A stretch of DNA of 64,000 nt, from positions 1-64,000 of the forward strand of contig JAPDOI010000415.1 in assembly GCA_029168955.1 (NCBI GenBank), read 5' to 3'. Below, piece by piece: positions 14,814 to 56,424 of this stretch. The position numbers and the translations under genes were made by a program. Position 1 is the stretch's first letter. Every line of letters begins with the position of its first letter. Source of the DNA: Aplectana chamaeleonis. Lineage: Eukaryota; Nematoda; Chromadorea; Rhabditida; Cosmocercidae. The notes beneath the pieces were generated by a model. It was not told the DNA's origin, made no database searches, and worked only from the letters and a program-made list of their open reading frames with translations.

Positions 14814-15006
14814 ATATTATCATCATGGACCCAGTTTTCATTCTCAGAAGGCGACACTCGGTTGCCCAATACGACTGCTAACCTTTCATAGAAAACTACT
14901 GAGGCTGGTTCGACCTCGCAGAAATTTTTTCAGATTCTCCGGAGCTCGAGGGTGAACGAGTGAGTATTAGGCGAAAAAAAGGCGAAAAAAGTCCCCTACT
15001 TTGATT

Positions 15007-28010: not shown

Positions 28011-30235
28011 CCCGGATAGTGGGCAGGTGTTTGAGACCCGTTGCTGCTCATCCGAAAAGTTGTGAAGACCACCCCGTAGAGTGAGCAGGAGCCCAGACTC
28101 GATGCTAGCCATCCGAGAAATTATGCCCCGGAATTTGCGCAGGAGAGAACACCTTGCAAAACTTTTGTAAAAGTGTAAGGATGACAAGCATAGCAAGCAG
28201 AAAGTTTGAGATGTTATGTGAGTCATGTCAGGTCATGTTGCCAGGCTGCTTTTCAGTTTCGTAAGGTCATTCACACAACCCCATTTTGAGTGCTCCCTCT
28301 TCCTTCTTCACCAGCCTACTGATTTTTCTGCAATAAATGGTACTTGCTTATTAGCATCCAAATTCAAAAACAAATTGTTAGAACTATCTCCATTCGCAGC
28401 TCAGCAGAGCTTTTTCATATCAGATTCATGGAATCGAAGCGGCTGTTCTGCGAAGGAATGGGGCAACGAAAACGAAATAATGAGTATGTAAAACTGCTTT
28501 GTTCCACTGATGTGAAAGTGTCCAGATGGAATGGAAGGTAGTTTCTGACTGTCCCGGTTTCAAGTTAGTTTCATTTGGAAGCGAAGAACTGCAGGCAGAT
28601 TCTGCATCCGGCTGTAGGCCAGCAGGCTTTCATGATTATCGACCGGGCTGGCTACGTCTGGGCGACCAACTATAACCGGGGCCTAAGGTCCCTGTCAGAG
28701 TTGGTTGAGAAAATCACCGTGGCCGACCCGTTTGATACGTATGAAAAACATGGAAGGTGCAAATAACACCCGTTGTAGCCAGATGTGGCTGACGCGATCA
28801 TTATGAATGAATTATGTGGAACGATATCATGGATATCATTCATTTCTTAGCTAATATCATGTGAACATCGGTCTTGTCAGCCACATCGAGTGATTTTTCT
28901 GAGATAGTTTTACAACAGTTTGGGTCATTGATTCTTGTGACCACAGAAAGAGGACTGATCTAGTGGGGAGATGAAGAGGTCTTTGTTCGAAATTCTTGCA
29001 TGGGATATTACAGCGTAATATCAAGAAAAAGTGAACAATTCTGTAAAAAAGGGGTCTCTCAAGCAGAAGTGGTTTGGTTAGCGTTACAAATGCTTCAACA
29101 AAAAGAGAACAATAGGAAAGCGGAATGAGGAGAGTCTACAAAAAATGAACAATATCCTCCAAGAACTCTTTTCTTTTTCGAAACTTCCAAACAGCGGAAA
29201 CAAACCGTTGTGGTATTTTACGAGGAAGAATTGACTGGTTCCCTAAAACAATTTAACATCATCTCCCCTTTTAATGATAGCTATTAGGTTCACATGCATA
29301 TATACATATTTTATCGGCACTCACATAATCAAAGTCCTTTATGGAGCCAAAAGCGCTTCCTCATAGAGAACCACAACGGTTTGTTTCCGCTGTTTGGAAG
29401 TTTCGAAAAAGAAAAGAGTTCTTGGAGGATATTGTTCATTTTTTGTAGACTCTCCTCATTCCGCTTTCCTATTGTTCCCTTTTTGTTGAAGCATTTGTAA
29501 CGCTAACCAAACCACTTCTGCTTGGGAGACCCCTTTTTTACAGATCCATTATTAAATTGAATTTCCCCTGATATCAGATGCGTGATAGCGTTACCAGTCA
29601 TTGTTTCCATAGAAACTTCATGTAAATATTTAATTTCTTTAGGCGGTATCATTTATTCTTTACTTGAACCCTGTGTGCCCCCACAACAAGAGCGCTAGTT
29701 TTCGAATGGGTTAGTGCTGTTCTTCTCCAACCGGTTGTTCGAATGTGGCTAACAGAGCTTGACCATTCGGATTCCGGCAATGTGCCTACAGCGGGTGACG
29801 GTAGTAGTTTTGGCGGGACCTCCTACCGCTCGACTGCGACGCATGTTCGGCAAACGCAGTTTCGGAGTCATTTAGCAACTATTTGGCCAGCTTTTCCTCG
29901 GGATTTCTTATCTGAATAACGAGTAGTGTTGTTTTACCGGTCTTCAATGGGATTAGCAGGCAACTTTTTCGCTCGTATTTGCCAGAAGTTCTTGAACGTG
30001 GCTCTGATGAAGTATACGCTCCGTAATCAACCTTCAACATCACTTATATGAGGCCTGAAGAAAATCATAGCATAGTCAGATTTGAAAAAACTAATCAATA
30101 CAATGCCAGTTTGCATTTCAAAGATCATGAACGCCCGAAATTCCTGACATCATGCCTTCATTTCATCCTCTTTAGGGTTACTAAGGGAACTTAAGGAGCC
30201 CTAAATCTCAATTACGCCTTACAGAAATTCTTAAA
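28011..30235. other. Intergenic with inverted repeat; no firm gene
   Basis: 28270-28500 and 28575-28766 contain open plus-strand segments (one reading ATNYNRGLRSLSELVEKI) that could be gene remnants; the family is unknown. An inverted repeat pairs 29040-29200 (AAAAAAGGGGTCTCTCAAGC...) with 29370-29540 (GCTTGGGAGACCCCTTTTTT), arms about 160 bp, giving a foldback element of about 500 bp. Confidence 0.4.
29040..29545. mobile_element. Foldback element with ~160-bp arms
   Basis: Left arm from about 29048 (AAAAAAGGGGTCTCTCAAGC) through AACAATATCCTCCAAGAACT to AACAAACCGTTGTGG (about 29213). Right arm from CCACAACGGTTTGTTTCCGC (about 29369) back through AGTTCTTGGAGGATATTGTT to GAGACCCCTTTTTT (about 29539). 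The arms are nearly identical, which implies a young insertion or gene conversion. No coding sequence. Confidence 0.75.
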
Positions 30236-30299
30236 CGAGTGATCCCCTCGACTACGATGATGCTTTTAAATTTGCCGAATGAAGAAACAACTCCGACAC

Positions 30300-30781
30300 C
30301 CTATCAAATTGAACGAGTAGTCGGCCTCCATCTACACCGATCAGCTCGAGAAACTAGCCGCCGCCATCCGAGAAAAGCATCCCCGACGGGCTTCGGTCCA
30401 CCTGCTGCACGACAACGCGCGCCCCCACGTGGCGAAGTAGACTCAGCAGAAGTTGGCCACGCTCGGCTGGGAGACGGTTGCCCATCCGACGTATTTCCCG
30501 GACCTCGCCCCCTCCGACTACCACTTGTTCCGCCCGCTGAAGCACCATTTGGCCGGAAGAAAATTCACCAACTACGACAACCTCAAATCCGACTTCGCGG
30601 ACTTCTTCGAGTGGCAGCCCCCGGAGTTCTGGGCGAAGGGCATCGGCGACCTGCCCAATCGATGGGCCACTGTTGTGGATAACTGTGGTGATTATATTGT
30701 TGACTAGACTTGTTCTTCAATAAAGTTGAAGAAAAATTAAAAATGGTGAAATTTTCGGACAAGAACTATTGGACAACCTGG
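30300..30781 (+). pseudogene. mariner transposase C-terminal remnant
   Basis: The frame ending at 30707 contains HDNARPHVAK, and downstream HPTYFPDLAPSDYHLF. The second and third catalytic aspartates are 34 residues apart, the DD34D spacing of mariner transposases. A TAG at 30438-30440 interrupts the frame just after the second aspartate, and the N-terminal DNA-binding part and first aspartate are missing. The 3' end of the element appears to be GGACAACCTGG followed by TA (30782-30783), as expected for a mariner terminus, but no left end is visible. The coding part is clearly richer in G+C than its surroundings, which fits recent acquisition from another genome. Confidence 0.85.
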
Positions 30782-30783
30782 TA

Positions 30784-31590
30784 CCTGTTGTGGGTTCTTC
30801 TCTAAAATGCACTGTCGGTCCACATCTGACAAAATAAGTTCTTAGAAAACGCGAATATTGAAGCAGAACCCACACCACGAGAATTTTCGCAAAGAGCACA
30901 CTCCAGAGGTGCCGTAGGCTTCAAACGGTAGGGTACAGAGTGTAGTTTCCTAAAGCTAGGATTTTCTCCAGGTACCTCATTTAAAACTTAAGTTACTGCA
31001 GTTTCAAAGCCCTAGTTTAGGTTCGTGGACTTGGAAGTTTTTTGCCCTCTTCCTATATCAGTGTAGCGGTCTTCGGCATTCATTTTGGACGCCGAAACTC
31101 AGCATAGAACAAATCCGCCACGCTGCACTCAAATATACTACTCCCGTGACTTTTAGTTTTCACTCAGAAGATACGAAATCGCCTGAGGGTAGCTAGTAAT
31201 TCCAGGAATGTCCAAGAAAAGCGCATAGCGAAGTAAAAAGGACTCGTCCACGAGAAGGTGCGCGCTCCATTCGCTCTCAGGTCCCTTACATATCAGAGTG
31301 ACTCTTCGTGCGCACCCCATCACCCTTTGTGTCACGTACTTTTTCTTAACGGGATACTACTCCGAGAAATTCAAATTTTGTTCAAAAATGTCAACAGGTT
31401 TGCAACGCAGCAGAGTCCTGAAGCGGATATTTCAGGAACTAGAAAAATTCTTTTCGGGCCCCCCGGTCAGAACACTGAATCCACTGCAGCTCTGGAACGA
31501 CCCCGCTGTGAAATCATCGTGCCCGCACCTTTCCTCACTGTCCAATAAGTACTTTTAGGCTCTAGATATAAACCAGCGGAATGAAAACGT
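30784..31590. other. Intergenic, no gene seen
   Basis: Open frames at 31258-31558 overlap in three frames without any domain. The sequence before the hairpin element ends in CCAGCGGAATGAAAACGTC, which recurs near the right edge of the window (63880). Confidence 0.35.
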
Positions 31591-31593
31591 CTT

Positions 31594-31712
31594 GCGATGA
31601 CATTGCCGCCGCTTGCTGCGTGGATCAGGGACTCGTTTGCAATATCGCGTCTTTGACGCAATATTGCAAACGAGTCTCTGATCCACGCAGCAAGCGGCGT
31701 CAATGTCATCGC
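31594..31712. repeat. 119-bp near-perfect hairpin
   Basis: The left arm GCGATGACATTG...CAATATCGCGTC pairs with the right arm (GACGCAATATTG...CAATGTCATCGC) over about 55 bp with only a few mismatches and a very short loop. Adjacent 31713-31735 is the terminus AGTATTAACGACCCCT of the element also seen at 12932-13070. A second, diverged and truncated copy runs into the right edge of the window (63897-64000). Confidence 0.8.
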
Positions 31713-32470
31713 AGGCGGAAGTATTAACGACCCCTCAGGCTGGTTAGTTTTGAGAGGCGGCGGTGAAATTCTTGATCGCTTACGAGGTCGACCGAGAACG
31801 AGTCAATGACCATGACCCCGTAGGTGATCGGTGAACCTCAGCCACCCACCACCATAGGTTCGTTAGGGTGGAGACAGCGGTCCTAGAGGTGAAGGTTGTT
31901 TAGGATACCTGAGTGGGGATTGGTGAAGGTTCCCTATAGACTTGGAACATCAAAATCTGACGTTTTCTCAACCCTCTTTTTCTTGCAATAAGTATATTTT
32001 TTTAATCATTAATTTTTTAACATTTTTTTCGTTAGATGACCCCCTTTTGAAGTTTACTATTCTCAATGATATGATCTGCCTAGGTCATGAAAAATTCCCT
32101 TTGAGCTGTCTTGGAGTGAAAAATTTTCGGAAAAATTTTCCAAGCGACTTTTGAAAAATTACCCGTTCTTCGCTCATAAAATTTTTGCCATTTAAAACAA
32201 ATCTTTGAATGGAGCTGTTTCCAAAGTCTCGATAGAATTTTGCGTCGAATAATGTTTTCATTTTGAGAAAAATACGTTTCCAGTCTCTCAGCTGATTTCA
32301 GTTTTTGAAGTAACGTTTCTTTCACCAAAAGCAATCAGTTTTTCGTCCATAACTTTTTTACCCTGGAAGATAGCTCTCTGGTGAAGGTGTTTTCGGAATC
32401 CTCATAAAATTTTGCATCTAATAGCGTTTTCAGTTTCGAAAAATGCGTCCCCCTCCTACGTTCCCCTTCT
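31713..32470. other. Repeat-like, no gene seen
   Basis: Includes a stretch similar to the sequence downstream of the 12932 element (CGACCCCTCAGGCTGGTTAG). It then runs into AT-rich sequence with GAAAAATT words and no exon. Confidence 0.35.
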
Positions 32471-32473
32471 ACG

Positions 32474-33041
32474 CGCCGCATTCAATGCGTGTCAAATATG
32501 CATTCAACTCGAGTGACCACACCCATAGAAAGGCTCTATCACAGAAGCACGTGCTCCAAACAGCAGCATGTGCTGCAAATTTTCATACCAGGAGCATGCG
32601 CCGCAAAATTCAATCGCAGGAGTACGTGCTGCAAGGTAGTCTAGCGATATCGCAGCAGCACTCAGACGCGACGCGGCTGGTACACCGACGTGCGACGCGG
32701 CTCGCTCGCCGAGCACCATCTGGGGCCGTCAGCGATTGGACGAGGCCTCCAGCGGCCGGGCGGGTGAAGTACCGCAAACATGGGTAATCGAACCGGCGAA
32801 GCTGCCAACCTCTCAGTTCCGTCTCAGGAGTGCATCGTATACCTTCCTTTTTTGGATAATCGTTTTGTCATCGAGTTGAATGGGTATCATGAACGCATTG
32901 GACGGCTTATTTGTTGGGGCACGTGCTGTTATTTGAAACACAATAGAAGTACGTGCTCCCCTAGCAGCACGTTCCCTGACTGTGCTCGAAACCACGTTGT
33001 CTTCGTGTTGAATGAATATTCGACACGCATTGAATGCGGCG
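32474..33041. mobile_element. Inverted-repeat element, ~570 bp
   Basis: The left end CGCCGCATTCAATGCGTGTC is the exact inverse of GACACGCATTGAATGCGGCG at the right. Internal words AGCACGTGCTCC and GTACGTGCTGC repeat several times in both arms. No coding sequence. Confidence 0.65.
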
Positions 33042-33054
33042 ATAGCCTGAGTTG

Positions 33055-33370
33055 CTGCCGAGATGTCGACAAGTCTATAATTGGCCACCGGCACAAAATT
33101 CTCACCAGTGTTGTAGATTTTCTTTTCTCAAAGTTTTCCATGTTATGGGCTCGATATTGTGATAACATTATCGCCGGTGAGGCTGTTTCCCTTCCCCCTC
33201 GCCTGTTCACACCTTCAGCCGCTTTCCTCTTCAGAAAGACGGTGTGTGAATGAAAACACACCGCTCTCCATTTCTTCTATACTCTACCCCTTATCAATTG
33301 GCTATCATCAATTTTGTTTACCGTTAGGATTTTGTGCCGGTGGCAATTTATAATCGTCTGAGATGTCGTA
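33055..33370. mobile_element. Inverted-repeat element, ~310 bp
   Basis: TTGGCCACCGGCACAAAATT near 33080 is mirrored by ATTTTGTGCCGGTGGCAATT near 33330. The arms extend outward to GAGATGTCG on both sides. It lies directly after the previous element. Confidence 0.55.
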
Positions 33371-33537
33371 CGTTCGTGCCGTGGCAGTGTGGATTAAAGA
33401 AGATCACCTCCGCGCAACCTCCCCTCCACGAAGAGGGTTTTTGTCATGGGAGAGGTGCTAGCCGGCCGCAGCTCTCCTTCGGATTCTCCTGCTAAGGGCC
33501 GGTGTGGAGAGGAATCCTGGACCCGCTCAGAAGTAAC

Positions 33538-33790
33538 CTTGCGCCACGTGCGGCAAGGATGTCACATGGTGGAAAACAAGCGTCCAGTGCTTCGGATGCC
33601 AAAGGTGGGTGCATCTCTCCTGTTCGGGTCTCAGCTCTGTGAGGCATCATAACTCTTCTTTTCGATGTGTTTCGTGCTCCTAACCTACCATCTCTGATTC
33701 CTCAAACTCTAATCGCCCCCCCCCTCCATTGTAATCTCAATGGCCTTCGTGCCAAGCTTTCTGAGCTCTCTCTCTTTGCAAGTAGCCTTC
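33538..33790 (+). pseudogene. LINE 5' fragment: PHD finger then endonuclease start
   Basis: From TGC at 33540 the frame reads CATCGK, QCFGCQRWVHLSCSGL and FRCVSC, a complete C4-H-C3 PHD finger pattern, ending at TAA 33681-33683. A second frame just downstream contains HCNLNGLRAKLSEL (about 33738-33780), which fits the opening of the APE-type endonuclease domain of non-LTR retrotransposons. PHD fingers before the endonuclease are known from CR1-like LINEs. The endonuclease frame is cut at about 33786 by the palindromic element. No reverse transcriptase follows. Confidence 0.7.
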
Positions 33791-33945
33791 ATTTCCCCGC
33801 TACTCGCACTTTTCTCTATCACTATCATAGAAGCGGTGAGGTTTTGAGAATGATTTCTTCATCCTCACGGTTGAATTTATCGAGAAACAACCGTTTCGCA
33901 CCTACGATACTGATAATACGACTTCGAGTAGCTCGGAAATGAAGG
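33783..33945. mobile_element. Palindromic ~160-bp element, first copy
   Basis: Starts AGCCTTCATTTCCCCGCTAC and ends with the diverged inverse GTAGCTCGGAAATGAAGG. It interrupts the LINE fragment. A second copy follows at 34046-34208 in the same orientation. Confidence 0.7.
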
Positions 33946-33984
33946 ATACTTACCATCCAGACGTGATCATCCTACTATATATAT

Positions 33985-34235
33985 TTTGGTAAATTTGTGT
34001 GTGTGTGTGCGTGTGTGTGTATGTATATATGTATGTATGTATGTAGCCTTCATTTCCCCGCTACTCGCACTTTTCCGTATCACTATCATAGAAGCGGTGT
34101 GGTTTTGAGAATGATTTCTTCATTTCCGTAGTTGAAATTTCCGAAAAACAACCGCTTCGCACCTGCGATTGTGATAGTAGGAGTGCAAGTAGCGGGGAAA
34201 TGAAGGCTATGTATGTATGTATGTATGTGTGCGTT
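33985..34235. repeat. Palindromic element, second copy, between GTAT/GT microsatellites
   Basis: A (GT)n/(GTAT)n tract at about 33996-34045 leads into AGCCTTCATTTCCCCGCTAC (34046). The element ends in GTAGCGGGGAAATGAAGGCT (34208), followed by another (ATGT)n tract (34209-34228). The arms are better preserved than in the first copy. Confidence 0.75.
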
Positions 34236-34304
34236 TCTCTGTGTGTTTGTTTGACCGTTTATTCGGCTTGACTTTCAAGACGGGCGACCTTACGGGTACG
34301 GGCT

Positions 34305-35515
34305 CAAGAGCGCGCAGAACGCCGTAGAAAGTGTGCGGGACCCAAGGTAGAGTGCGCCGGACGCCGTAGAAAGTGTGTGGGACCCAAGGTAGAGTGCCCC
34401 AGACGACGTAGAAAGTGTGCGGGACCCAAGGTAGAGTGCGCCGGACGCCGTAGAAAATGTGCGAGACCCAAGTGGAAGTGCGTAGGAAAGCCGTAGAAAG
34501 TGTGCGGGACCCAAATGGAAGTGCGTAGGACGCCGAGGAAAGTGTGCGGGACCCAAGTGGGAGTGCGCAAAACGCCGAGGAAAGTGTGCGGGACCCAAGT
34601 GGGAGTGCGCAGGACGCCGTAGGGAGTATGCGGGATCCAAGTGGAAGTGCGCCAAACGCCGTAGAAAGTGTGCGGGACCCAAGGTAGAGTGCGCCGGACG
34701 CCGTAGAAAAGAGTGTGGGACCCAAGGTAGAGTGCGCCGGACGCCGTAGAAAGTGTGCGGGACCCAAGGTAGAGTGCGCCGGACGCCGTAGAAAAGAGTG
34801 TGGGACCCAAGGTAGAGTGCGCCGGACGCTGTAGAAAGTGTGTGGGACCCAAGTGGCAGTGCGCCAGAGGCCGTAGGGAGTATGCGGGATCCACGTGGGA
34901 GTGCGCCAAACGCCGTAGGGAGTATGCGGGATCCAAGTGGAAGTGCGCAGGACGCCGTAGAAAATGTGTGGGATCCGAATGCGAGTGCGCCAAACGCCGA
35001 AGAAAGTGGGCGGGACCCAACTGGGAGTGCTCAGGACGCCATAGAAAAAGTGCGGGACCCAAGTAGGAGTGCGCAGAACGCCGTAAAAAGTGTGCGTGAC
35101 CTAAGGTAGAGTGCGCCGGGCGCTAGAGAAAGTATGTGGGACCCTAATGCGAGTGCGCCGGACGCCGAAGAAAGTGTGCGGGACCCAAGTGGGAGTGCGC
35201 AGGACTCATAAAAAGTGTGCGAGACCCAATTGGGAGTGCGCAGGACGCCATAAAAAGTGTGCGGTACCCAAGATAGAGTGCGGCCGACGACGTAGAATGT
35301 GTGCGGGACCCAATTGGGAATGCGCAGGACGCTGCAGGAAGTGTGTGGGACCCAAATGTGAGTGCGCCGGACGTCGTAGGAAGTGTGCGAGACCGAAGTG
35401 GGAGTGAGCCGGACGCCGTGTAAAGTGTGTGGGAGTGCGCCAGACGCCATAGGGAGTATGCGGGATTCGAGTGGGAGTGCGCTGGACACCGTAGAAAGTG
35501 TGCGGGGCCGAAGTG
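34305..35515. repeat. Second 42-bp satellite array, ~28 units
   Basis: Tandem units of the type GGGACCCAAGGTAGAGTGCG, CCGGACGCCGTAGAAAGTGT, GC, with a second common form carrying AAGTGGGAGTGCGC. Most units are 42 bp, hence overlapping open frames on both strands. Unlike the CRE satellite, units diverge noticeably from one another. Confidence 0.9.
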
Positions 35516-36430
35516 GGTGAGAGCAGAACTTCGAAATCGTTTTGTGCGTCTATAAAGAGTGTATACCACCCCTTTCTTCAAGTCCCCTCCCCCTTAACCA
35601 CTAATTTCAACTGCTTAGCTGTTTGTATGCACCAACCTTTCTAAATCGGGTTTATATACGATGGAAATGTGAGTTAATCGAAATATGCATCCAGAAAACA
35701 CAAACATCATTATACTTCATTTGACAATAAAAGTAGCAGGGTATCGGTTGGTCATGGAGGCCTTTACTAAATCTGAAACAGCGGTAGTCTTTATCATGAC
35801 AGAAATGGATATAAATGAGCTACCATTTTAGGACCTCTTAAAACTAGAGAAGGGTCGGTGTGCAACTGCATAAGAAAGTAGGTTAGCAAGGTTTGCAAGG
35901 TTTGAAATGCTTAGTAACTTCTGATTGCTCGAGCGTTGTCGTCGAAACCAGCTCATGGGCCGGCGCAACCGGACTCCAGCGACAGAGGCCGGCGATAGCC
36001 GGCAAGCGTGAAAACTTCTGAACGCCAACTCACATAGAATCAGCGGATGTCGATTATACTCAAGATGCCGGCGAAGCCGGCAAATGGACCGGCGTAGCCG
36101 GACCCCAGCGGCAGAGGCCGGCGTCAGCCGGCCGACGCCGCCGGTGGTTCAATAAACCGCGCTCTCTCTATCCCCTACAAATCCTCATCCCAATATCCCA
36201 GGTATCACAAATGTGATTAAAAATGTAAAGAGAGATGCTAGATGGAAAGTCATGTTTCGAAATATCAGTGCATTCCTATGTGCGTTTCTCAGTGGCAATG
36301 TAGAAAGATAGGGCCAGAGATAGCGTGCTGTAGCTAGGAAACACAAGCTGGGAAACACATCGGTATAAAAGTCAGTGAACGACGCACCATCACGCATCTC
36401 CTCCACAGCTTCTCTGTGCATTAATGCATA
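35516..36430. other. Intergenic; short GCCGGC-rich repeat at 35940-36150
   Basis: 35950-36010 and 36066-36140 repeat words such as GCCGGCGTAGCCGGAC, GACCGGCG and AGAGGCCGGCG. The minus frame 36185-36421 has no recognisable domain. Part of 36180-36430 is probably the 5' portion of the LTR described next. Confidence 0.4.
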
Positions 36431-36666
36431 AATTCTTCTTGAATCTCAAGAGCATTTGATTTCGTAGTTTTAGATAATTTGCCTTGAGGTAATAATATGC
36501 CTACCTATTGTCACTTTCTATTGATGTTTGTAATTGTATTTGTATGTATGTGATCGCATTTAGTCTTGTTAGTTTATTGTAATACATAAAGTTTAATTAC
36601 CCAAGTTTGAGGTGCAAACCCAAAAACCGCGTGGCAACACCAGACTCACTATTCCAACTGTTCAGC
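36430..36666 (+). mobile_element. 3' portion of an LTR
   Basis: The sequence just upstream of the primer-binding site has an AATACATAAAG polyadenylation-like region near 36580 and ends in ...GTTCA (36664), two bases before the PBS. LTRs end in CA close to the PBS. The left boundary of the LTR is not determined and no second LTR copy was found in the window. Confidence 0.5.
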
Positions 36667-36685
36667 TGGTGCATCGGCCGGGAAT
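36667..36685 (+). promoter_or_regulatory. Retrotransposon primer-binding site for tRNA-Gly
   Basis: TGGTGCATCGGCCGGGAAT is the reverse complement of the CCA-tailed 3' end of a eukaryotic tRNA-Gly(GCC): acceptor stem TGCATCGGC plus part of the T arm. A 19-nt match directly after an LTR end is strong evidence for a reverse-transcription start site. A shorter 13-nt version is at 50057-50069. Confidence 0.8.
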
Positions 36686-36771
36686 ATCCTCGATGCTGTT
36701 GAATGGGGCAGCATAGGCGATGCACAAGAAGCCTCTGTTATTTTTACTATTCGTATCATCTTGATGGTAGG

Positions 36772-38350
36772 ATGAGGACTCCAAGTGAAATGAGGGCTTT
36801 CATTGAAGCAGACCGAGGAAGGAAGTTTCTCTATGTCAAGTTCGGAGAAAAGTCGGTGAAGATTCGTTGATTTGACCAGTCAGACCCAGGTTTACAGAGC
36901 CGTTATATTATTCACGAAAAATACAGCGGGAGAGGTTGAACTAGCGGGTCTCATAAGCTCCAATGAGCAAGGGCCATGGAGTTTCATGAACCCCAAGCTC
37001 TATCAAGTCGAAAAGATGCCCACAATACCTGTTGAGATTCCAATGCAGGTTGATTTACGTAATGGGAGTCAGGAAGTAACGATCCATCCGGGAGCAGGAA
37101 AGACCAGAGATATTTTACCGCGTTTGGTTGAAGATGCCCTCATTCAAAAACGTGAGATAGTTGTATCTGCTCCGACACGAGCAATTTGCTCTTAGATGTA
37201 TGTCACTCTGGTTGAGTACACGCAGAAACGAGAAATTCCTTGTGATATTCTGTGTCGTCATCGAAAGCGTGACCTCACAAGAAAGACGTTCGGATCCGTT
37301 GGGAGAATAACTATCATACCTCATGCTGTGCACGCAAGAGAGCTCCTTCTCACTAGCAAATATCAAAGGATACCCACAGTGTTCATCGTCGACGAAGCAC
37401 ATTATCCCGATGTCATATCGATAAGACTCATGTCTGTGCTCCGAAGGTTGAGGTTTAACCCGACGTTCACTGTCATCGAGCTCTCGGCTTCTGTGAGGAA
37501 TTGGAATACCGGAGTTCTTAACTTTCAGGGTGGTTCTAATTATCATATAGAGGAAGAGGAATGCGCTCCCGAAAAACTCAAGGAGACCTCACGGGAACAT
37601 TCAGGGAAAGGATTAAATGTAATGGTCTTCTGCGGGTCGGTGCACGGTAGAGGTGTATCATGTGCAAATGTGGCAAAAATGCTGGATACCGGCCTAGTTA
37701 TCAGGTTTCACAGAGCCACTTATGGCAGGTATACATCAGTCATACAAGATATGAAAGCCTCACCTGAAGGCCTGTTTATTCTAGTTACCAACATGTGTGA
37801 GTGTGGAATAAACCCTGCCGTGGACGTTTTCGTGGATCCCATGAGGGTGATGGTTTTTAAAACCAAGACCCCTGGATTGTGTTGCCTTGAAGAAGAGTAT
37901 GATACAGCATCAAGTCAGCTCCAAAGAAGGGGTCGAGAAGGACGTCACAGGGAAGGTGTGTACAAATCACCAGTGGGTGTGAACCTCATCCGAGGTTGTA
38001 CCACATCAACTCCAGAGAACTTGAAGCGAAGTTGTGTCTTGAAGCCTTCGGATTTTCTCTGGCTGTCGGAGAACTTTCGGGGTGGGAAAATGTTGATTTA
38101 TCGGTATCCATTCAACAAGCAAAACTTTTTCTCGATCAAGAAACAACCGGAAAGACCAGCTTGATTTGTATGATGACTATGACAAGAGCCTTTACAGCCA
38201 CAGCTCCGACGACAGACCGACCAAGACAAAGGATGTGAGTGCAAAGAAGGTCTATCCAGGTGCGCTTAAGCGAGTTCATTTGGAGGAAAAGATTACATCG
38301 ATCAAGACATACCTGGAGCTAATTCGCATGTACCAGAGAGGAAAATAAGC
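36772..38350 (+). pseudogene. Endogenous flavivirus-like NS3 helicase (old viral copy)
   Basis: Superfamily 2 helicase of the flavivirus NS3 type. Seen directly: motif I HPGAGKTR (about 37084-37107), motif Ia APTR, motif II DEAH (37391-37402), a motif V-like VTNMCECGIN, and motif VI QRRGREGR (37922-37945), in the right order and with spacing reasonable for the family. Motif III is altered (SASV in place of the usual TAT-like core). The longest open stretch is 37196-38164. Breaks: TAG at 37193-37195 in the same frame as the upstream part; an apparent frame change near 36868 at the N side; and further apparent changes near 37985 and 38160 at the C side. The protease catalytic triad and polymerase are not present. 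It is a helicase-centred fragment with decayed function. No other cellular DExH family has the GAGKTR/QRRGREGR combination that I know of. I do not join or repair the frames. Confidence 0.8.
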
Positions 38351-38356
38351 CGATCG

Positions 38357-38501
38357 AATGTGATGAGAGAAGAGGAACGGTTTCTACGGTGCTCCTTCTG
38401 CTTGGAAAAAAGACAACACTATAGCGATCGTTGCCCCGAGCTCGTGAGCGTCGAATTTCGTCAGAAGCGCATCCGATGCACGCTATGCCTCGACGCCAGA
38501 C
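38357..38501 (+). pseudogene. BEL/Pao-like Gag zinc knuckles (interrupted)
   Basis: First knuckle CSFCLEKRQHYSDRC (38390-38434; C-X2-C-X5-H-X4-C). A second begins CTLCLD at 38477 and is cut after 38501 by the hAT element; its His and last Cys lie at 39694-39710, beyond the insertion. Paired knuckles of this spacing are typical of BEL/Pao Gag C-termini. The frame after the second knuckle ends at 39729-39731. No pol follows. Confidence 0.6.
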
Positions 38502-39685
38502 CAGGGGTGTGCATTTTCCGTTTACCGATTTACCGATTTCCGGATATACCGGTGTTTTTCGGTTTGCCGATTTGCCGATTTTATCTCAAAATTTACCGAA
38601 ATTTTTACCGAAAAGAAAAATTGGGTGTTTTTCGCCCAATCGGCCTACTTCTAACTCGTATTTCACGGGTTTGCCACCGATATGGCATGCACTTGGCGCG
38701 ATCACCTTCTTCATCCTTCCTTTTTTTTACTCTTTCTAACCCTTTGGTTTACTTTTTGGAAGTTCAAACGATCTCTTCACCTTTTGTATCACGTGCTTCT
38801 ACTTTTTGAGATTTTACTACGAGAAATCCCCTTCTGGCAAAGTTAAAGGCACAGTACACCCTCAGATATGAATTTTGGGATATTCGTGTAATTGTGTAGA
38901 AGACCCCTTCTATATAACACGTGCCAAATGCGAGATTTTAATTCCTTCGAGTAAGCGAGATATAAGTGACCACCACAGGCCCGACCCCCTTCGCTCACCA
39001 CTACAGGCCCGACCCCCTAACAGATTTTCGAACTCGATAGCGGCTCGATGAATGGATGAATTCCAACATGTCGTCGTTCTTCAGTCCATCGCAGGCCTAT
39101 CTTCTCATCCTGTTTTGCTCTCCTGCAGCGATTGCGAATGAAGAGTAATACAGGCCTGAGACAACTCGTCCACAAAATTGTCGCCCCTAAAATGCAGGCA
39201 TTTTCAAGGAGCCATATCTCCGTTCGTAGGGGGTCTTGGACGATTTCAGAGATATCACTGTGATCACCGTGTGACTCTCTCCGAGATAATCATGGAATCT
39301 AAAGATAATTTCTTGGGTGTTCTGTGCCTTTAAGGCGGAAAGAATGTTTTCCTCAGCTGGCCTGATTTTGAGTCACTACAGAAAGGCCTTGACGACAGAA
39401 AATTTCGAAATGTTACTTTCTCAATATCAGTGTCGCGCTGATTAGGTTCAGCCGTTGAGCTCAGTTTAATATGTAAAACTCACTCAATATTTGCACTATC
39501 CTCATGCACTATTGAAAATTATACATAAATAATATTATTCATTTCTGCTATCGCATCGGATATGAACCAAAATCGAAGCCAGAGTTTTTACCGAATTTTC
39601 CGTTTTTACCGTATTTACCGAGAAAAAATTTCGGTAAAAACTTTCGGTAACAAATTTACCGAAAGTAATTTTCCGCACACCCCTG
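38502..39685. mobile_element. hAT-like element, 1184 bp, with 8-bp TSD
   Basis: Left terminus CAGGGGTGTGCATTTTCCG; right terminus TTTTCCGCACACCCCTG. The flanking direct repeat CGCCAGAC is at 38494-38501 and 39686-39693. Subterminal TTTACCGA/TCGGTAAA words are clustered at both ends. It has no transposase, so it is a non-autonomous copy. It sits in the second Gag zinc knuckle. Confidence 0.9.
38843..39333. mobile_element. TTAA MITE nested in the hAT element
   Basis: TTAAAGGCACAGTACACCCT at the left and GGGTGTTCTGTGCCTTTAA at the right, TTAA at both sides, 491 bp. Near-identical in layout to 56807-57298, including the internal CAGGCCCGACCCCCT duplicated motif. Confidence 0.85.
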
Positions 39686-39693
39686 CGCCAGAC

Positions 39694-40845
39694 ATGAGAT
39701 GAGGAGATGTCCGAAACCAAGGAGGGCGTAACTACGAGAAAAAAGACATAGAATAGGCATGATCTTTTTTTTAGTTCAAGGATCATTCAAGAAGCTAGGT
39801 TTCGAATGAATGACTGATTCGAGTCATTTTTAGAACATCTCGGATGAATGAAATTCTCGAATATGGGCCTCTTATGATTTCGAACCAAATGAATTTGGAA
39901 AAATCATTTCAAATTTTCCAAATGAATGGATTTTTCCAATAACGCGTTCTCGAAATTTCAGAGTGGAGGAATAAATTCGAGTGAACCCTATGAAATTTTT
40001 GGAGGATGAATTATATCAAAAAGTGTCCTCTGGCCGACTCGAATGAATCGTCGGAAACATTGTTGATAATTCCGAAAAATTCATTGGTATGTTTTTTTTT
40101 CCAGAGGCCGAATATTCGAGTAAGGTAAGACAAAATTGGCCGAATAATGGGAAAATCGAACGAATTATCTTCTCGAATGAAGGGGGGCCGCAGTGACGAA
40201 TCATTCGCTGGGAGGGGGGGCGCATTCCCCACCGACCGGTCCCATTGCCACGCCTGACCCTGATTTGGCCCAGAGAACGGCAGTACTTGCACTTTGCTAT
40301 TTTTACTTTGCTAGAGTTTGGGATGGGCATAGTTTTGAGGTGAATGTGAATTTTTTTCGACGCATTCCCCAAGATCGGAACCAACTCCGTCCTTCAATTT
40401 TTTTTATGAGAAAACTAAAGTCAATCTATCTTTGCGAGCCTTCAAAACGAGTAACGACAAAAAGATATTTCGATTCGTATACATAGGCACGATGAAACGG
40501 GAAACATTAGTGATTAATTTTCTGAAAAAATGTTCACATCATAATATTTTTATCATTGAAAGCTTTTTTCTGCTGAAATCGTGGGTCTCATTAAAGGCAA
40601 AAAACATCTGGAAAATAATTCCAAGATTTCATATTTTATCTTGGAGACATGCTGGTGACATTAGTATCTGTGAAATAAATTTTCTCATTCCGCTCCTTTC
40701 TGGTGGAAACCAAAAACTATCGCAAAAAATTAAAGTTTGAGAATCGGGCCTCGCGATACGGCATGAAATTTCTTGTCGACTTCCGAAAGTCGGAGGGAAG
40801 GCAAGGAAATGCGGAAAGGGCAGCTTTTTTTAATTCCCCAATACA
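39694..40845. other. Gag tail, then intergenic repeats
   Basis: 39694-39731 completes the interrupted Gag frame. 39780-40200 is rich in ATTCGA/TCGAATGA words and ends in a G7 run (40203-40215), which looks like another transposon terminus. No further pol-related frame was found. Confidence 0.4.
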
Positions 40846-41586
40846 AGGTTTGACGGTTTGATTCTGGACCATTGGTGAGATATAAGCCGTTTCCGAGCTC
40901 ACTTCACTATGCATTCAACTCCTCTAATCACTTGATTGAGGTTGCCACTATCATCGGGCATGAATGGCCGAGGGGATATTGATGGGGAATACTAGACTAC
41001 GAAGGTGTGCTGGGTTTGCTTGTTCGATTCCCGCAATGCATCCTCTGAAAAAATTGTTTTGCATTTATTCGGTTCCTTATCCACGAGGTTTCTCATTCAC
41101 ATATAAACTTGCTTTCTATCTTATTGAATCTTATTGAATTTTCGATTACTATCCCGTAAATCCATGTAGTACATATTTGAGCATTTCCTCACCTTATTGA
41201 AAAAACTGATATTCTTCTGCTAGCATTTTGGGTTCATTGAGAATTATTGTAGTGTAGCCATCTCCTATCTTCGTATTACTTCGCTTCAGTGAAGGAAAAC
41301 ACTTTTTTTGAGCACATAAAAGTTGATTGCGATTCATCGTAGAGGAAACATCGCCATTGTAAGAAGCAGAGCAATGAACCCTTCTTTAGAAATTGTCATC
41401 CTGATCACAGTTTTCATTTTCAGAAGGCGATTTTCGGTTGCCTAATACGACTGCTAAGCTTTCATAGAAAACTACTAAGGCTGGTTCAACCTCGCAGAAA
41501 TTTTTTTCGTCTCACCGGTTTTCGATGGTGAATAACAAGTGAGTGAGTATAAGGCGAAAAAAAAGTCGAAAAAATCCCCAACTTTG
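40846..41586. repeat. Second repeat segment, copy B (empty site)
   Basis: Partner of 13628-15006. It includes the tRNA-like block at 40960-41045 and, at about 41385-41400, the uninterrupted counterpart of the site where the 658-bp element is inserted in copy A. Confidence 0.75.
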
Positions 41587-42214
41587 ATCCTTGGCAATGG
41601 AATGTGATAAAAATTCTGATCTCGTGGATATTTCCGACTTTTTCCGCATCTTCGGGCTTGAAAAGGGAATCGGAAGTCGGAGATCCGACGAAATCCTGCA
41701 TGACACTTATATATGTATTGTTCCTCCTGCACAGAGCCGTATTCTATTAAAAATCTGGAAACGAACAACATGATAGTTTTATGAAATGAACCGACACGAG
41801 TGGAATCAACCCTTTAAACCGAAATTTCCCTGTTTCAGGATGCCTATGAAAATATCCGGCGAGATTCGCCCGCCATTGAGGTATGACAAGGATATAAAAG
41901 TAGTGATTTCCCAGTGTATATAGTAATCACCCAAAGCAACCAAGGATGCAGAATTACTAGGAAGGCTAAAAACTGTCAACACAAGTGTATAGCAACAGTA
42001 TGATGCGAACGAGCATGCGAAAAGCCCCCACCGCCTTCGACTACGAAAGGGGCCGGCACCGGCTGGCAGCAAGTACTGCGCCGATCAATCAGCTCTGCAG
42101 ACGAGGGGAGAGGGGATGGCCGTCGTTGAAATTTAACACTCCTCCGAGGGCGACACATGCGACGGCCGCCTGCCAAGCACGCTGGCCGCGTGGGCCGCCA
42201 TTCTCATTCAAGCA

Positions 42215-44285
42215 CGCTTTAGAGTCAGCGGATCGGCGACTGCGGCGCTGGAAGCTCTTCTGACTCGGGAGCGTGCGGCAGCAAAGCGTGTCGAGACGCA
42301 ATTGCGGACCGGAGTTTGGCCCAGAGAAGCACAGTATATAACTGGAAAATCACTTTCTGGGTGTTCTGTGCCTTTAACAACCCTGAAATAACCTGTGATA
42401 GCAAAGAAATTTCCTCTTTCAGTTGAAATACTTGCTATTTGCCACCTCGAGGTGCATATGAAGGCTGACAAGCAAAAATTAGCTTCTCAACGCCAGGGCG
42501 TGACGCGCTGGCGTGGCGTCAGGCCATTCACACTCCAACGCTAGGAGCAGAAATAGCGCTTATTTGACAGATCAAGAAAATTTGGTAATGTAATATGATG
42601 TAATTAGGTGGTATTTTTCTAATTGTAGGGTGCTATTCATACCCCTCAACGCCTACGCATCACGCGCGTGACGCCCGAGCATCGTGTTGAGGTAAAAAAT
42701 GCTTTAAGTGTGCGTGACGAGCTTGCGGAGGCTACGAATAGTCCAGCGACGACGCTATTGCGGAGCGGATTGAAGTTGGCTTTACATCAGCCAAAAGAGC
42801 AAAATCTGTTTGCTCGTTCGCTACCATGGTAGCAGATGATCGCACCAAAAAGTATAATTATGGAATGAAGTGAAATTAATGATGCATTAATAATGATGAA
42901 AAAGTCGTTATAGTCGCCGTCTCCATAGTGGAACGGGCGTCAGGCTATTCATAATCCAACGCCATACGCGCGCGGCAGCAACGTGACGCTCAGGCATTGA
43001 GTGTGGACAGTGCCTAGCGGACAAAAAGTAACATGTGAGATCAAGGAAAGGTAATTTTTTGAACAAAACCTGCCCCTAAATCGGACTAGAAATATTTTTC
43101 CTTAATTAACAGTAGTGGCAGCCTGATAATGTTCTTGCTGAACCTCCAAAGCCAAAACGAGTTACGTCGGTTCGGTCTTGGAACGCGGAAACCAGAGGAA
43201 TTTCGGAAAGAACAGGTCAAAACTACGCTTCCCGAGGCTCGTCGGTAGGGTAGGGTGTGCAGCCATTATTCACTGAAATATTTGGCTTCTCACTGCAAAA
43301 AGTAACAATTCAGATTTTCAAGTTGGGGGGAGGGAGGAAGGGGGGGGCGCAGCACCGTCGAGGTCATGGACAACGGTCTGCCTGACCCTGATTCCAAAAT
43401 TGGCGCGTCAAAAAGCCTTGAAACTTTTTAGCCGTCTCTGGCCTAGAGCATCGTTTATATCTCAGCCTGGCGAAGAGCAACTAAACCCTACAGATCACGC
43501 GACGCTTCGAAGCGGCTGCAAAAGACGTGAGACAGCAAAATGCTAAAAACTTAATCTAAGTTTACCTTAGGAAGATTATTTGGGGTGCTGATCACGATTC
43601 TGAGGATTTTTTCAAAGTTTTCGGCTAAATGCGTTCCCAACCTCCCGTCGGGAACACTTTGTGGGCAAAACGCGACTTTTGACGATTTCTGGATTACTAC
43701 GATGAATGTGGCTCGAATTTATTTTCCTGGTGATTAATTGGAGTGCATCATACGAACCCGAGGTCCGTTAAAAATTTCTACGCGGGGTATGCATCGGAGA
43801 TCCCGTAGGCGATCGGCGCCCCTCACCCATCCACCACGCCACGCCGCCGTCAAGGGTCGTTTATACTCCCGCCGCCGAGCGGCGCGGCATAGTGCATTTC
43901 TGTAATATTGATCACGTGGCGCGGCACGATCGATATCGTAGGATTGCACTTCGCCGTATAGGATTCGCGGCGGAAGTATAAACGACCCCTCAGGCTGGTT
44001 AGTTTAGAGAGGCGTCTGTGCGTTTCACAAACTCCGTGGGGTCCTTGGAGAAAGCAGCTTCAGTGAGTGATCACGGTATTTACGGTATGGTAATTGAGGC
44101 CAGATTGTCTATATTTACACGGCAGTTTCGAAGAATGCGGGAACGATTTCTAAAAAGGTGCACTAAGGGCCCACTTTTGTTTAACGGTGATTCACTAAAA
44201 TGGCCGGAATAACTCGAAGAGGGCCTTTTTTCGCAGCTTTCACACATTCCTTGAGACTACCTGTAGCACACACTCCAATTCATCG
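42215..44285. repeat. 2-kb repeat segment, copy B
   Basis: Partner of 11310-13370 in the same orientation, including the 43852-43990 TIR element and the right end of a TTAA element at about 42357-42375. A G-rich insertion (GGGGAGGGAGGAAGGGGGGG) near 43326 distinguishes it from copy A. Confidence 0.8.
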
Positions 44286-46030
44286 GGGAAAGACCCTGCA
44301 CAACGCGTTGTGTTGCCCGCACAACCCGTTGTGCAAAACACAACGAGTCGAGACGCATTCCCTCGACTTGGTGCAAAAAAGACAAAATTAATATGAATGA
44401 CATTCTGAAATATGCAACTCTAATTTTTTTCTAAAGCTGTTACTTAGTGAAGCAGGTGGCAGTTTCAAGTGCATAGCGTTTAATATTTGTATAATGTCAG
44501 AAGTAAATCCATAAAATTAATTTGAAGACTAAGAAACTTAATTTGCACGCCAAAGAGACGGTTTCGATTGATAGGTTGGCTTCTGAGACCTTTTTCAACG
44601 TAGATTCCAATAAATAGAGCTAAAATGGACGTCGGATACTCCGCTTAAAGTTACTAATATTTCCAGATTATTCGGCTCCTCCTTAGGGCGCGAGTGAGAG
44701 ACAGTCCCATATCTAGAACGAATAATTACTTCTGAGGTGCTGATAACAGATTTCATTCAAATTTATAGGTACGCAAACGTTCTGTACCATGTTTTGACGA
44801 AAGCTTGGCGGACGTTTAATATAAATTTCGATCAATGCTTCCTATTCAAGGGTAATTTTGGATGTTCTTCTGAGAACACTAGCAAGTCGGCACTTAAATT
44901 AGAGTTGTTTAGTTTTACTTCCGGTTCTGTAACTCTACGCGGTTCTGTATTATCTCGCATGATCTTTTTTTTCAACGAGCCTCTCTCTCGGAAAGCACCG
45001 AAATTCGAACCATGAAATCATTTTCGAAATGATTTGTGGGCAAAAGACTGGTTGTGAGTAATAGTCAGATTTCAGGAATGTTCATTTTATCTACTAATCT
45101 TCCAACGCATGATGGTACGGACGTGAGCTCTAAGGCTCCGTTCATAGCAGACGAGCAGCGGCAAAGCACCAAGGCGTCGGAGCATCATGCGCCAGCGCTG
45201 AAACGCTGGCGCATGACGCTCGACGGCTGGCGCAAGCAACGTGTCCGAGGACGGCACGTGGTTAATGATGGTATCGATAATATATGTGACAGCCGCTACT
45301 GCCGCTATGCCTCCACCGTCAGCGTCAGGGCGCATGCAGTGGTCGCTGGGGAGTCAGATCAACAACGAGTGTTAAAGATGCAAACCCCTGGCGTCACTTG
45401 GCGCCAGGTCGTCTGCTGCTATGGACGGAACCTAACTAGGAAAGTGTTAAAAGACCTCTTGTTCGTCTGCAACGGATTATATTCCTATTAAGTGGCGTTT
45501 ACGAAGTCTGTAGCTGGTAAGGAAATTCGAAGAGGGGGGTAAGAAAGGGTATTCTCAGCTAGGGGGAAGGAAGCTCCCATCAGGCAATTTTCAGGGAGTT
45601 CACGAAAATGGTTTCAAATTCAGTTCAAACATGTTTTCTGAGAGTGTCTCATAGTGTTGAATACGATTCTGGGCTCCGTTTATCGGCAACCTGGGACTTA
45701 CTGTAGGTGGACTTAGATATTATGCCATTTAGTTGGCGTGAACTGTCTTCGTACTTCAACAGTCGATACGTGGGAACCGGCGATCTATAACGCTATCAAC
45801 TGAAGTATTCCTAAGGAATTCTATCAACAACAAAGATTGATAGCAGCATCAAGCATCTTTTATCCGGTTTTCCATTCATTTCTATGAGGTGGTTCGTTTC
45901 ATTTCTGACTTTTACTTGAGCGCCCCCGTTTAGGATAGTCCTCTCGAATACACCCCTTTCCCTCCTAATGAGGTCCTCCGCTAAATCTGAGAAAAGAATG
46001 TAGTCACTGAAGACAGAAAATTCCAGGTGA
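44286..46030. other. Intergenic; includes a single G-tract element remnant
   Basis: 44300-44340 holds CAACGCGTTGTGTTGCCCGC-like palindromic words. 45780-45940 matches the inner part of the element in the 26.7-27.9 kb array (CGATCTATAACGCTATCAAC to GCGCCCCCGTTTAGGATAGT), without adjoining satellite. The 151-codon frame at 45036-45491 crosses a GCGCTGGCGC-rich repeat and is not convincing as a gene. Confidence 0.4.
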
Positions 46031-50157: not shown

Positions 50158-50408
50158 CTATGTGATTTTTCTGGAAAGACCAAGTTCTCCAGCTATTTGC
50201 TCCTTTATTATGGTTCCAGGAACACCTGTGTCAGAAAAGAATATCACTCTTTCAAAACTGTTGGTGTTATAATTCCAAACTTTGCCCTCAGTTGTCATCA
50301 GAACAGCTTGGTCTTTAAATACATCGGTCTTATTTCCTGCTGTGGAGCTGGGAATAGTTTGAATCCCGCATGTATCTACGTATTTTGGTCCTCTCGATGA
50401 GTAGTATC
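50158..50408 (-). pseudogene. BEL/Pao-type retropepsin fragment, antisense to the LTR
   Basis: Reading leftward, one frame gives QAVLMTTEGKVWN, then VIFFSDTGVPGTI and AGELGLSRKIT before TAG at 50158-50160. D-T-G followed by a hydrophobic patch and A-x-x-LGL is the retropepsin active-site context of BEL/Pao elements. The fragment is about 80 residues, with a stop upstream near 50410. It faces toward the LTR at 49570-50053, which is opposite to the direction implied by that LTR's primer site, so this is a rearranged or nested pair of elements. Confidence 0.55.
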
Positions 50409-55860: not shown

Positions 55861-55919
55861 AAGGCTCTTTTTCCTGATTTCCAAATTCAGCGCACCTTCC
55901 AGAACGCCTACAGTTCACC

Positions 55920-56151
55920 TCCGCACTGCCGTTCAGTCCGCAAAGTGCACCCTGATTGCGAAATCTTGCTGCGGCGCGGTTGCGATCATCCTCAGACAAG
56001 GATGTGGGATCACCCGGGCGCCTCTGGCCTTCGGTGCCCGGGTGATCCCACCGCCCGGGTGATCCCACATCCCTGTCTGAGGATACTCGCAACCGCGCCG
56101 CAGCACGATTTCGCAATCAAGCGCACTTTGCGGACTGAACGGCAGTGCGGA
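55920..56151. mobile_element. 232-bp foldback element
   Basis: The outer arms TCCGCACTGCCGTTCAGTCC and GGACTGAACGGCAGTGCGGA are perfect inverses. Complementarity continues inward through GCAAAGTGC, TGCGAAATC, GCGGCGCGGTTGCGA and GGATGTGGGATCACCCGGGCG. The centre is GGTGCCCGGGTGATCCCACC with a repeat of GCCCGGGTGATCCC. The minus open frame over this area is a by-product of the palindrome. Confidence 0.85.
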
Positions 56152-56424
56152 AGCGAAGAATACATATCTTTCGAAAAAACTGGAAACGGATCTCATAATC
56201 GTGCTTAGCGCCTACAACAACCACCAGGTAAGGAGTTTGAGTGACATAATATTTTTCGAACTCAGCATATAGTGATGGTCTTCTGTACTTCTACGGTTTG
56301 TCGGCTGAGCATTTACTTATACATATCAATTAGAGGGTTCTGTAAATGTGGAATGGTTTTTATGGCTAAAAGTGGTCTCCTCGTTAGCAATACCACTACG
56401 CCAACTTTGAACGTTGCAGAGCCT

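Follow-up and report, generated by a model that had tools for sequence, protein, structure and literature searches.

A flavivirus-type NS3 helicase piece combined with a BEL/Pao-type LTR element in the nematode Aplectana chamaeleonis

The LTR element and its uninterrupted relatives

We analysed a 64-kb window of the Aplectana chamaeleonis genome (contig JAPDOI010000415.1, positions 1 to 64,000), which is rich in repeats. Between 36202 and 39735, one strand carries an LTR, a tRNA-Gly primer site, a piece of a flavivirus-type NS3 helicase and zinc knuckles. Defined junctions link the LTR, the primer site, an antisense piece of a host FAR gene, a permuted flavi-like NS3 block and a knuckle ORF, and the locus is a genuine chimera in which viral sequence is combined with a single LTR element. 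The order of LTR end, primer site, NS3-type helicase and knuckles had been noted in a sequence-only reading of this DNA and was borne out by the primer-site match, by the Flavi_DEAD and 6m40 matches and by the relatives L011 and L012; that reading lacked the permutation, the FAR fragment between primer site and virus, and the accessory identity of the knuckle ORF. Pfam searches of 94 window ORFs (read stop to stop, at least 90 aa, two satellites excluded) gave one ORF with Flavi_DEAD and one with a doubtful CEMIP_X match, and Rfam gave no match at gathering scores across the whole window.

The LTR (36202–36664, plus strand) starts at the position common to five aligned copies (window, L011, L012, L015 and L016) and ends in CTGTTCA, with L012 departing from the other copies after CTGTT. 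The upstream flanks differ between copies except that L015 equals L016, so that the five copies represent four contexts. The window LTR is 85% identical to L011, 90% to L012 and 78–79% to L015/L016. It contains at 36591–36611 (plus strand) a 21-mer followed by GT, which we take to be like spliced leader 1 (SL1), and the same SL1-like 21-mer lies at the equivalent position in the LTRs of a second BEL/Pao family. Rfam detected no SL RNA in the window at gathering scores, nor in L060, L011 or L013 at E values up to 5.

The primer binding site (36667–36685, plus strand) matches 19/19 the complement of the tRNA-Gly(GCC) 3′ end plus CCA. The tRNA sequence used is the one we presume for tRNA-Gly(GCC), and host tRNA-Gly loci were also compared; in the two examined, CCA is present in the genomic sequence and the 5′ ends are unusual, so they may not be working genes. 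The second-best site in 64 kb differs at 5 of 18 positions, and ~5e-7 exact 19-nt sites are expected by chance (calculated). The match extends over 14 nt in the sister-family LTRs that are followed by a primer site (7 of 13 LTRs) and over 12 nt in L011. Elsewhere in the window, a 13-nt primer-like match occurs at 50057, near a minus-strand protease remnant.

The knuckle ORF of the retrotransposon is represented at 38152–38501 on the plus strand by its C-terminal part, with 93.7% identity to L011 (38152–38452) and 93.1% to L012 (38371–38501). This part holds knuckle 1 (C-x2-C-x5-H-x4-C, 38390–38434, plus strand) and the first half of knuckle 2. The rest of knuckle 2 lies at 39686–39735 (plus strand), 93.2% identical to L012 over 39686–39729 and divergent thereafter; the element stops within knuckle 3, which is lost after ~39735. 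The motif alone is weak (one found against a mean of 0.63 in 30 random sequences), Pfam gave nothing above cut-off for the knuckle, and a homologous-protein search with the knuckle region found none. Its identity as a knuckle is established by sequence comparison with L011 and L012.

Knuckle 2 is split by a non-autonomous hAT-type insertion of 1184 bp (38502–39685). The insertion has terminal inverted repeats (CAGGGGTGTGC) and an 8-bp target-site duplication (CGCCAGAC, at 38494–38501 and 39686–39693), and L012 retains the empty site. Window ORFs of at least 90 aa contained no transposase domain.

L011, on contig C80, provided the uninterrupted relative against which the junctions could be placed, a comparison that had been called for earlier. 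It shares the LTR and primer site of the window, and these are followed by a 577-aa ORF, with no FAR and no virus. This ORF is open across the place of the viral block and its C-terminus matches the window from 38152 on (94%, against 85% for the LTR and primer site). A normal gag aligning through 36772–38350 was sought, and the L011 ORF aligned only from 38152 onward. Relative to L011, ~1.5 kb of leader and ORF is replaced in the window by the FAR piece and ~1.42 kb of viral sequence.

The sequence-only reading had taken the knuckles for a BEL/Pao-like Gag. We rejected this label since L060, an apparently full-length BEL/Pao element on C15, encodes a separate Gag (DUF1759, E 8.6e-22) and carries before its 3′ LTR an ORF related to the knuckle ORF of the window. 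Judged from these sequence relationships, the knuckle ORF is an accessory ORF rather than the BEL/Pao Gag. No second LTR is present in the 64 kb.

The host FAR piece and the permuted viral block

Part of the first exon of a host FAR gene (36674–36731, minus strand, hence antisense) is fused inside or at the end of the primer site. Of its 58 bp, 57/57 are identical to FAR and one is an extra G, which completes the 19-nt tRNA match and is absent from the other FAR-piece loci (2/2). The donor ORF matches Pfam Gp-FAR-1 with E 9.8e-50. Another locus, L013, is an intronless FAR copy with SL1 upstream of the ATG, which indicates that FAR mRNA was reverse transcribed in the host germ line at some time. 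The piece in the window falls within a single exon, so an RNA donor and a DNA donor fit alike. Strong-stop synthesis copies 18–19 nt of the tRNA, and the left junction of the chimera lies at the 3′ end of this copied stretch; the break is at most 1–2 nt from the strong-stop terminus, within a region of ~1.5 kb.

The viral block begins with a tail (36729–36894, plus strand) that corresponds to the region downstream of the helicase in relatives, with 65–69% nucleotide identity to L019, L045, L046, L047 and L056. It continues with a head (36895–38152, plus strand) that comprises the last part of the NS3 protease region and then the helicase, with the Walker A motif HPGAGKT. The head contains one in-frame stop and one frame change. 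The viral segment had earlier been placed at 36772–38350; viral sequence is indeed present there, but its limits are ~36729–38152 and 38152–38501 belongs to the retrotransposon ORF.

Positions 36860–37192 match Pfam Flavi_DEAD (E 4.9e-8), and 37196–38161 match 6m40, the NS3-like chain of Jingmen tick virus (E 1.4e-10). The latter piece was closest to Jingmen tick virus (44.1 vs 17.5 bits), and the former to orthoflaviviruses over 38 residues (30.1 vs 15.6 bits). The relative L046 has a 472-aa open frame that matches NS3 protease-helicase chains (best E 5.3e-15) and was also closest to orthoflaviviruses. The protease-then-helicase order of Flaviviridae NS3 is present in L046, whereas the window carries only the end of the protease region. 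A search with 37196–38161 found no homologous proteins at E 1e-3 among 830 candidates, and four scans of viral contigs found no relatives. AlphaFold predictions of the two helicase pieces, each alone and with no alignment, were uninformative (mean pLDDT of 29.6 and 36.9).

The viral relatives in the genome are 62–69% identical to the window block at the nucleotide level, and no endogenous donor was found among them, whereas the FAR piece matches its gene at 57/57. L046, L047 and L019 carry ~145 bp extra near residue 178, which L018 and L045 do not; we read this as a lineage insertion and dropped the idea that the helicase is a spliced host gene.

The order of the viral block is circularly permuted, with the helicase tail ahead of the body. 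Clear head homology starts at 36911, placing the tail-head joint between 36894 and 36911. In all five relatives that hold both parts (5 of 8 viral relatives), the head and tail ends are 6–9 nt apart. These five represent three lineages, since L019, L046 and L047 are duplicates of one family. The calculated probability of such a coincident cut point is ~1% over 1.4 kb. No circular viral molecule was observed.

Duplication and origin of the chimera

The chimera lies within a 628,544-base contig and occurs in two copies that differ from each other, and is thus embedded in host DNA; together with the Flavi_DEAD and 6m40 homology to an RNA-virus replication protein, this marks an endogenous element of a non-retroviral RNA virus. 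The 1.04-Gb assembly gave 48 candidates, 40 of which were scored; besides the window copy, one was full length. The stretch 30000–44290, which includes the whole chimera, recurs on this contig at a distance of 113 kb (30000 being the edge of the stretch compared, not the boundary of the duplication). The second copy matches at 98.4–98.7% in both flanks and also holds the hAT-type insertion. Because both flanks are shared, we consider it a segmental duplication, and the reading of the second copy, on C1503, as an independent transposition was rejected.

The sequence-only reading had also proposed that the helicase travels with a retrotransposon lineage able to move it. The existence of two LTR-PBS-helicase-ORF copies agrees with this, but the lone other full-length copy among the 40 candidates scored has the same flanks where a mobile family would give different ones, the frames are broken, and none of the eight other viral loci shows the LTR or the knuckle ORF in the 3–10 kb compared at each; such a lineage is very unlikely. 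It is equally hard to credit that unrelated fragments happen to lie side by side. The window is crowded with repeats and a single knuckle motif is near chance level, as that explanation would have it, but in L011 the LTR, primer site and ORF end follow one another as they do in the window and with almost the same spacing (about 1.49 against 1.47 kb), which refutes it. The chimera looks inert now, since its frames are broken, it has a single LTR and no pol was found, and it looks like the relic of one copying accident rather than a jumping gene.

The locus is probably an endogenous viral element that arose from one aberrant BEL/Pao-type reverse transcription in the nematode germ line. Within this, we infer strong-stop mispairing, FAR copying, a circle lap and a return switch. 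Plus strong-stop DNA, made up of the LTR and a copy of the primer tRNA-Gly 3′ end, would have mispaired with FAR mRNA, part of which nearly matches the tRNA end, and ~46 nt of that mRNA would have been copied. A switch on AAG would then have led to circular viral DNA, copied for one lap from cut point to cut point, and a further switch, on AAGAC, would have brought synthesis back onto the minus strand of the element within the knuckle ORF, after which the product would have integrated. Integration by the element's integrase can only be presumed, since no 3′ LTR, pol or target-site duplication of the element was found at the locus. Later, the hAT-type element would have inserted, the 3′ end would have been lost, and the chimera, along with 14 kb or more of the DNA around it, would have been duplicated. 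The virus is sense and FAR antisense, the orientations required by this copying order, although such agreements are coin tosses; beyond the junction position, the tRNA-copy argument rests on one G. The locus may thus be a germ-line fossil of the circular DNA of a flavi-like virus, lapped exactly once by a BEL/Pao reverse transcriptase after a tRNA-templated strong-stop misprimed on a host mRNA, a detailed account that we hold tentatively. The template switching onto viral RNA suggested earlier is supported in part: the junctions relative to L011 fit switching by a reverse transcriptase, but the best reading has circular viral DNA as the template.

End joining typically leaves short microhomologies and filler of unrelated host DNA. 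An existing LTR copy could therefore have been broken between the primer site and the knuckle ORF, with ~1.5 kb lost, and repaired by end joining, with 57 bp of FAR as filler and a viral circle that had been linearised. The matches at AAG and AAGAC, read by eye, and the host filler fit this as well, and one opening of a circle explains the 6–9 nt between head and tail ends. However, out of a region of ~1.5 kb, the left break would have hit a point 1–2 nt or less from the strong-stop terminus, and the tRNA match is completed by the extra G, so we regard DNA-level capture as rather unlikely. Linear template switches dispense with the circle: the reverse transcriptase would have entered viral RNA twice and exited by chance at its first entry point. 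Published chimeras have been put down to copy-choice recombination (PMC5177903; PMC6797480), but the ~1% coincidence at the cut point makes this improbable here.

Comparison with known virus-LTR chimeras

Virus-in-LTR chimeras are already published; what is unusual here is the permuted order and the junction at the primer site. According to the accessible text of PMC5177903, eBxnv-1 is a nodavirus RdRp in a Bel/Pao (Tas-clade) element of Bursaphelenchus xylophilus. It shares with the window a nematode host, a positive-strand RNA virus replication gene, a Bel/Pao element with a primer site and a missing gag, and no further full copy is reported in that text. However, eBxnv-1 retains two LTRs and pol sequences, whereas in the window a single LTR remains, the viral block is permuted, a host FAR piece is present and the locus is duplicated. 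In Aag2 cells, a CFAV NS2A element is flanked by a Ty3/gypsy LTR and gag, so that flavivirus-type sequence adjoins the LTR and gag of one element, as at our locus, and circular viral and virus-LTR hybrid DNA were found (PMC6797480, in the text available). Circular viral DNA, which our reading of the locus presumes, is thus demonstrated there. That system differs in involving mosquito cells and Ty3/gypsy, and the available text mentions no permutation.

AeBunya1 of Aedes aegypti likewise places RNA-virus sequence within a BEL/Pao element, although it belongs to another virus group (bunyavirus by name) and its Pao-Bel element is full-length (PMC5497376, available portion). Tick genomes hold endogenous flavi/jingmen-like genes derived from segments 1, 2 or 4 of jingmenviruses, as described in the accessible parts of PMC13155725 and PMC10675110, whereas the window carries an NS3-like piece in a nematode, inside an LTR element. 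In the literature searched, mostly outside subscription journals and partly as excerpts, no flavi-like EVE lying within an LTR element came up for a nematode, nor any EVE in permuted order.

Arguments about how RNA viruses that lack a reverse transcriptase enter animal germ lines often appeal to the closeness of LTR elements. At this locus the junctions themselves are readable: one coincides with the strong-stop end of the primer site, and two show one circle lap, with a host gene piece between, so the step-by-step copying model is testable by strain comparison. If true, the locus is a nematode record of the intermediate, circular viral DNA, that has been described in insect cells. The flavi-like NS3 relics of several lineages are an addition to a nematode genome and bear on which animals such viruses infected.

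Composition of the chimera

The chimera begins with an LTR (36202-36664, + strand) followed by a primer site (36667-36685, +), which is complementary at 19 of 19 nt to the tRNA-Gly(GCC) 3′ end plus CCA. The 22-nt complement of that end has at least 788 exact copies in the assembly, where repeat counts are lower bounds, and the reversed control has none. ARAGORN called tRNA-Gly(gcc) at both loci fetched, each giving a 19-nt run with the primer site; both encode CCA in the DNA and have odd 5′ ends. Many listed copies of the 3′ end lie in tandem arrays (~164 and ~174 bp; C75:879955-893432, C82:2012513-2016403).

Overlapping the primer site is an antisense piece of FAR exon 1 (36674-36731), with 57 of 57 FAR bases and one extra G. 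The FAR product falls in the nematode family of fatty acid and retinoid binding proteins (Pfam Gp-FAR-1, E 9.8e-50). Outside the window and its duplicate, the piece occurs at two loci, with introns on C69 and intronless on C1431, both without the extra G. The intronless copy (L013:4746-5345) carries a spliced-leader-1 (SL1) sequence immediately upstream of its ATG, and a second SL1 lies 2.1 kb on, at 6847, with the same upstream bases. This copy and the second SL1-headed stretch are probably retrocopies of trans-spliced mRNAs. The FAR gene and the SL1 sequence heading its retrocopy are the two indications that the host is a nematode.

Flavivirus-type NS3 sequence follows (about 36729-38152, +), then zinc knuckles (from 38390, +). 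The sequence-only reading had proposed both the tRNA-Gly primer site, which the host tRNA loci support, and an NS3-type helicase, borne out by matches to Flavi_DEAD (E 4.9e-8) and to 6m40, an NS3-like chain of Jingmen tick virus (E 1.4e-10). Judged by its sequence, the viral block is NS3 of a flavi-like virus. Among solved structures, the second helicase piece is nearest Jingmen tick virus, while the first piece and the viral relative L046 are nearest orthoflaviviruses. The window locus has one LTR only, and neither pol nor a target duplication was found there.

A permuted viral block and its proposed copying

Comparison with the viral relatives reveals that the block is permuted. In L045, L019, L046, L047 and L056 the head (window 36911-38152) precedes the tail (36731-36894), and the window has the tail before the head. 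The two parts lie 9, 9, 9, 9 and 6 nt apart across these five relatives, which represent three lineages since L019, L046 and L047 form one duplicated family; no tail was seen in L018, L020 or L054, the other three of the eight. Because head and tail ends are so close in the relatives and their order is swapped in the window, the block reads as one lap of a circle, whose two cut ends now abut FAR and the ORF.

Plus strong-stop synthesis copies 18-19 nt of the tRNA primer, and the left junction of the chimera coincides with the end of such a copy. The tRNA match is shorter in related elements: L011 has 12 nt, and each of the seven sister-family LTRs followed by a primer site (13 read) has 14 nt. 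FAR mRNA contains a stretch that nearly matches this tRNA end. We propose that strong-stop DNA would have mispaired with FAR mRNA and then been extended, yielding the observed sequence including the extra G. A second switch, from FAR to viral DNA, could have used a shared AAG, and the last, to the knuckle ORF, a shared AAGAC (both by eye). The junctions are read directly and the copying steps we infer from them; as support for tRNA copying the extra G is a single base, and a DNA-repair route acting on the same putative circle is possible, if rather unlikely.

Published reports describe Jingmen-like and other Flaviviridae sequences in nematode transcriptomes (PMC11445058), a nematode Bel/Pao element holding a nodavirus gene (PMC5177903), a flavivirus piece adjoining an LTR and gag, together with circular virus-LTR hybrids, in mosquito cells (PMC6797480), and a Pao-Bel element with bunyavirus-type sequence (PMC5497376). 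Since nodavirus, flavivirus and bunyavirus-type chimeras are published, this kind of virus-in-LTR locus is already known. Three features are new as far as the literature searched shows: the permuted order of the viral block, the fusion of the primer site to a host gene, and the presence of flavi-like NS3 in what is probably a nematode.

Uninterrupted relatives and the knuckle ORF

L011 (C80) has an LTR and primer site 85% identical to those of the window and, ~1.49 kb beyond them, a counterpart of window 38152-38452 (94%). An open 577-aa ORF lies in this interval and continues into the knuckle. The knuckle ORF of L012 (C1451) has three knuckles, is free of the hAT-type insertion (window 38502-39685) and reads on into an LTR. 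Together these two loci make LTR-PBS-ORF-LTR the probable original unit, relative to which ~1.5 kb of leader and ORF is replaced in the window.

The knuckles had been labeled Gag. The C15 element, whose LTR-type repeats lie 10.5 kb apart, starts with an LTR, a primer site and a DUF1759 Gag (E 8.6e-22) with, by eye, knuckles and aspartyl protease of its own, and it places a relative of the window's knuckle ORF directly upstream of the 3′ LTR. We therefore prefer to describe the window's ORF as an accessory knuckle ORF belonging to BEL/Pao elements. The C15 protein matches the L011 ORF at 42% over residues 442-546 (E 3.9e-10) and 32% over residues 295-422 (E 1.1e-16). From listed matches, C1455 and C149 have knuckle-ORF relatives and repeats at similar distances, with a primer site only after the repeat far from the ORF. 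Judging from two fragments, the L011/L012 type looks like a BEL/Pao derivative with the knuckle ORF only. The L011 ORF may itself be a fusion, because relatives of its N-terminal half (C1:3058265-3059384, C1445:104282-104917) have no listed match to the knuckle end or LTR. A possible retroelement aspartyl protease remnant in the window (50161-50406, minus; Pfam E 0.036, below cut-off) is perhaps another BEL/Pao fragment.

An SL1-like stretch followed by GT (window 36591-36611) recurs in the LTRs of two diverged BEL/Pao families, 55 nt upstream of the primer site in the window and L011 and 52 nt upstream in the sister family. It is present in all 13 sister-family LTRs read (L059, L060, L061-L071), which were picked using the motif itself; Rfam found no SL RNA at this stretch. 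One idea is that, with such an LTR, RNA trans-spliced to SL1 could remain usable for first-strand transfer.

Copy number, viral relatives and other repeats

We searched the assembly (1.037 Gb, 2087 contigs), in which the window is C1503:1-64000, and scored 40 of 48 candidates, among which one other full-length match was found, near 149 kb on C1503. It belongs to a repeat spanning window 30000-44290, save a variable-length satellite and 1.26 kb of sequence inserted into the copy. Copy and window agree at 98.5% in the LTR, 66 of 66 positions in primer site plus FAR, 97.3% in the viral block, 99.1% in the knuckle ORF, 98.4% in the hAT-type insertion and 98.4-98.7% in the flanks. None of the eight other viral loci has the LTR or knuckle ORF within the sequence fetched around it; L012 matches seven of them, solely in repeats outside its LTR and ORF. 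A mobile helicase-carrying family, as earlier suggested, gives way to one event, the sole other full-length copy among candidates scored being a duplicate with shared flanks.

The viral loci comprise a family on C10, C40 and C946, duplicated together with its own flanks, and separate loci on C188 and C433. They reach only 62-69% nucleotide identity to the window block, so no close donor of the capture was found in the assembly. L046:1498-2916 (minus) and L047:760-2028 are flavi-like NS3 relics with open frames of 472 and 422 aa. On both C10 and C40 there is an inverted pair whose members are 7-8 kb apart, and the two loci are alike at 92% over 6.5 kb.

Elsewhere in the window, fold-back repeats (14155-14814, 29040-29544, 5224-5809, 6550-7179, 55914-56157) are 68-85% identical to their own reverse complements, and two distinct 42-bp satellite arrays occupy 23971-26698 and 34308-35434.
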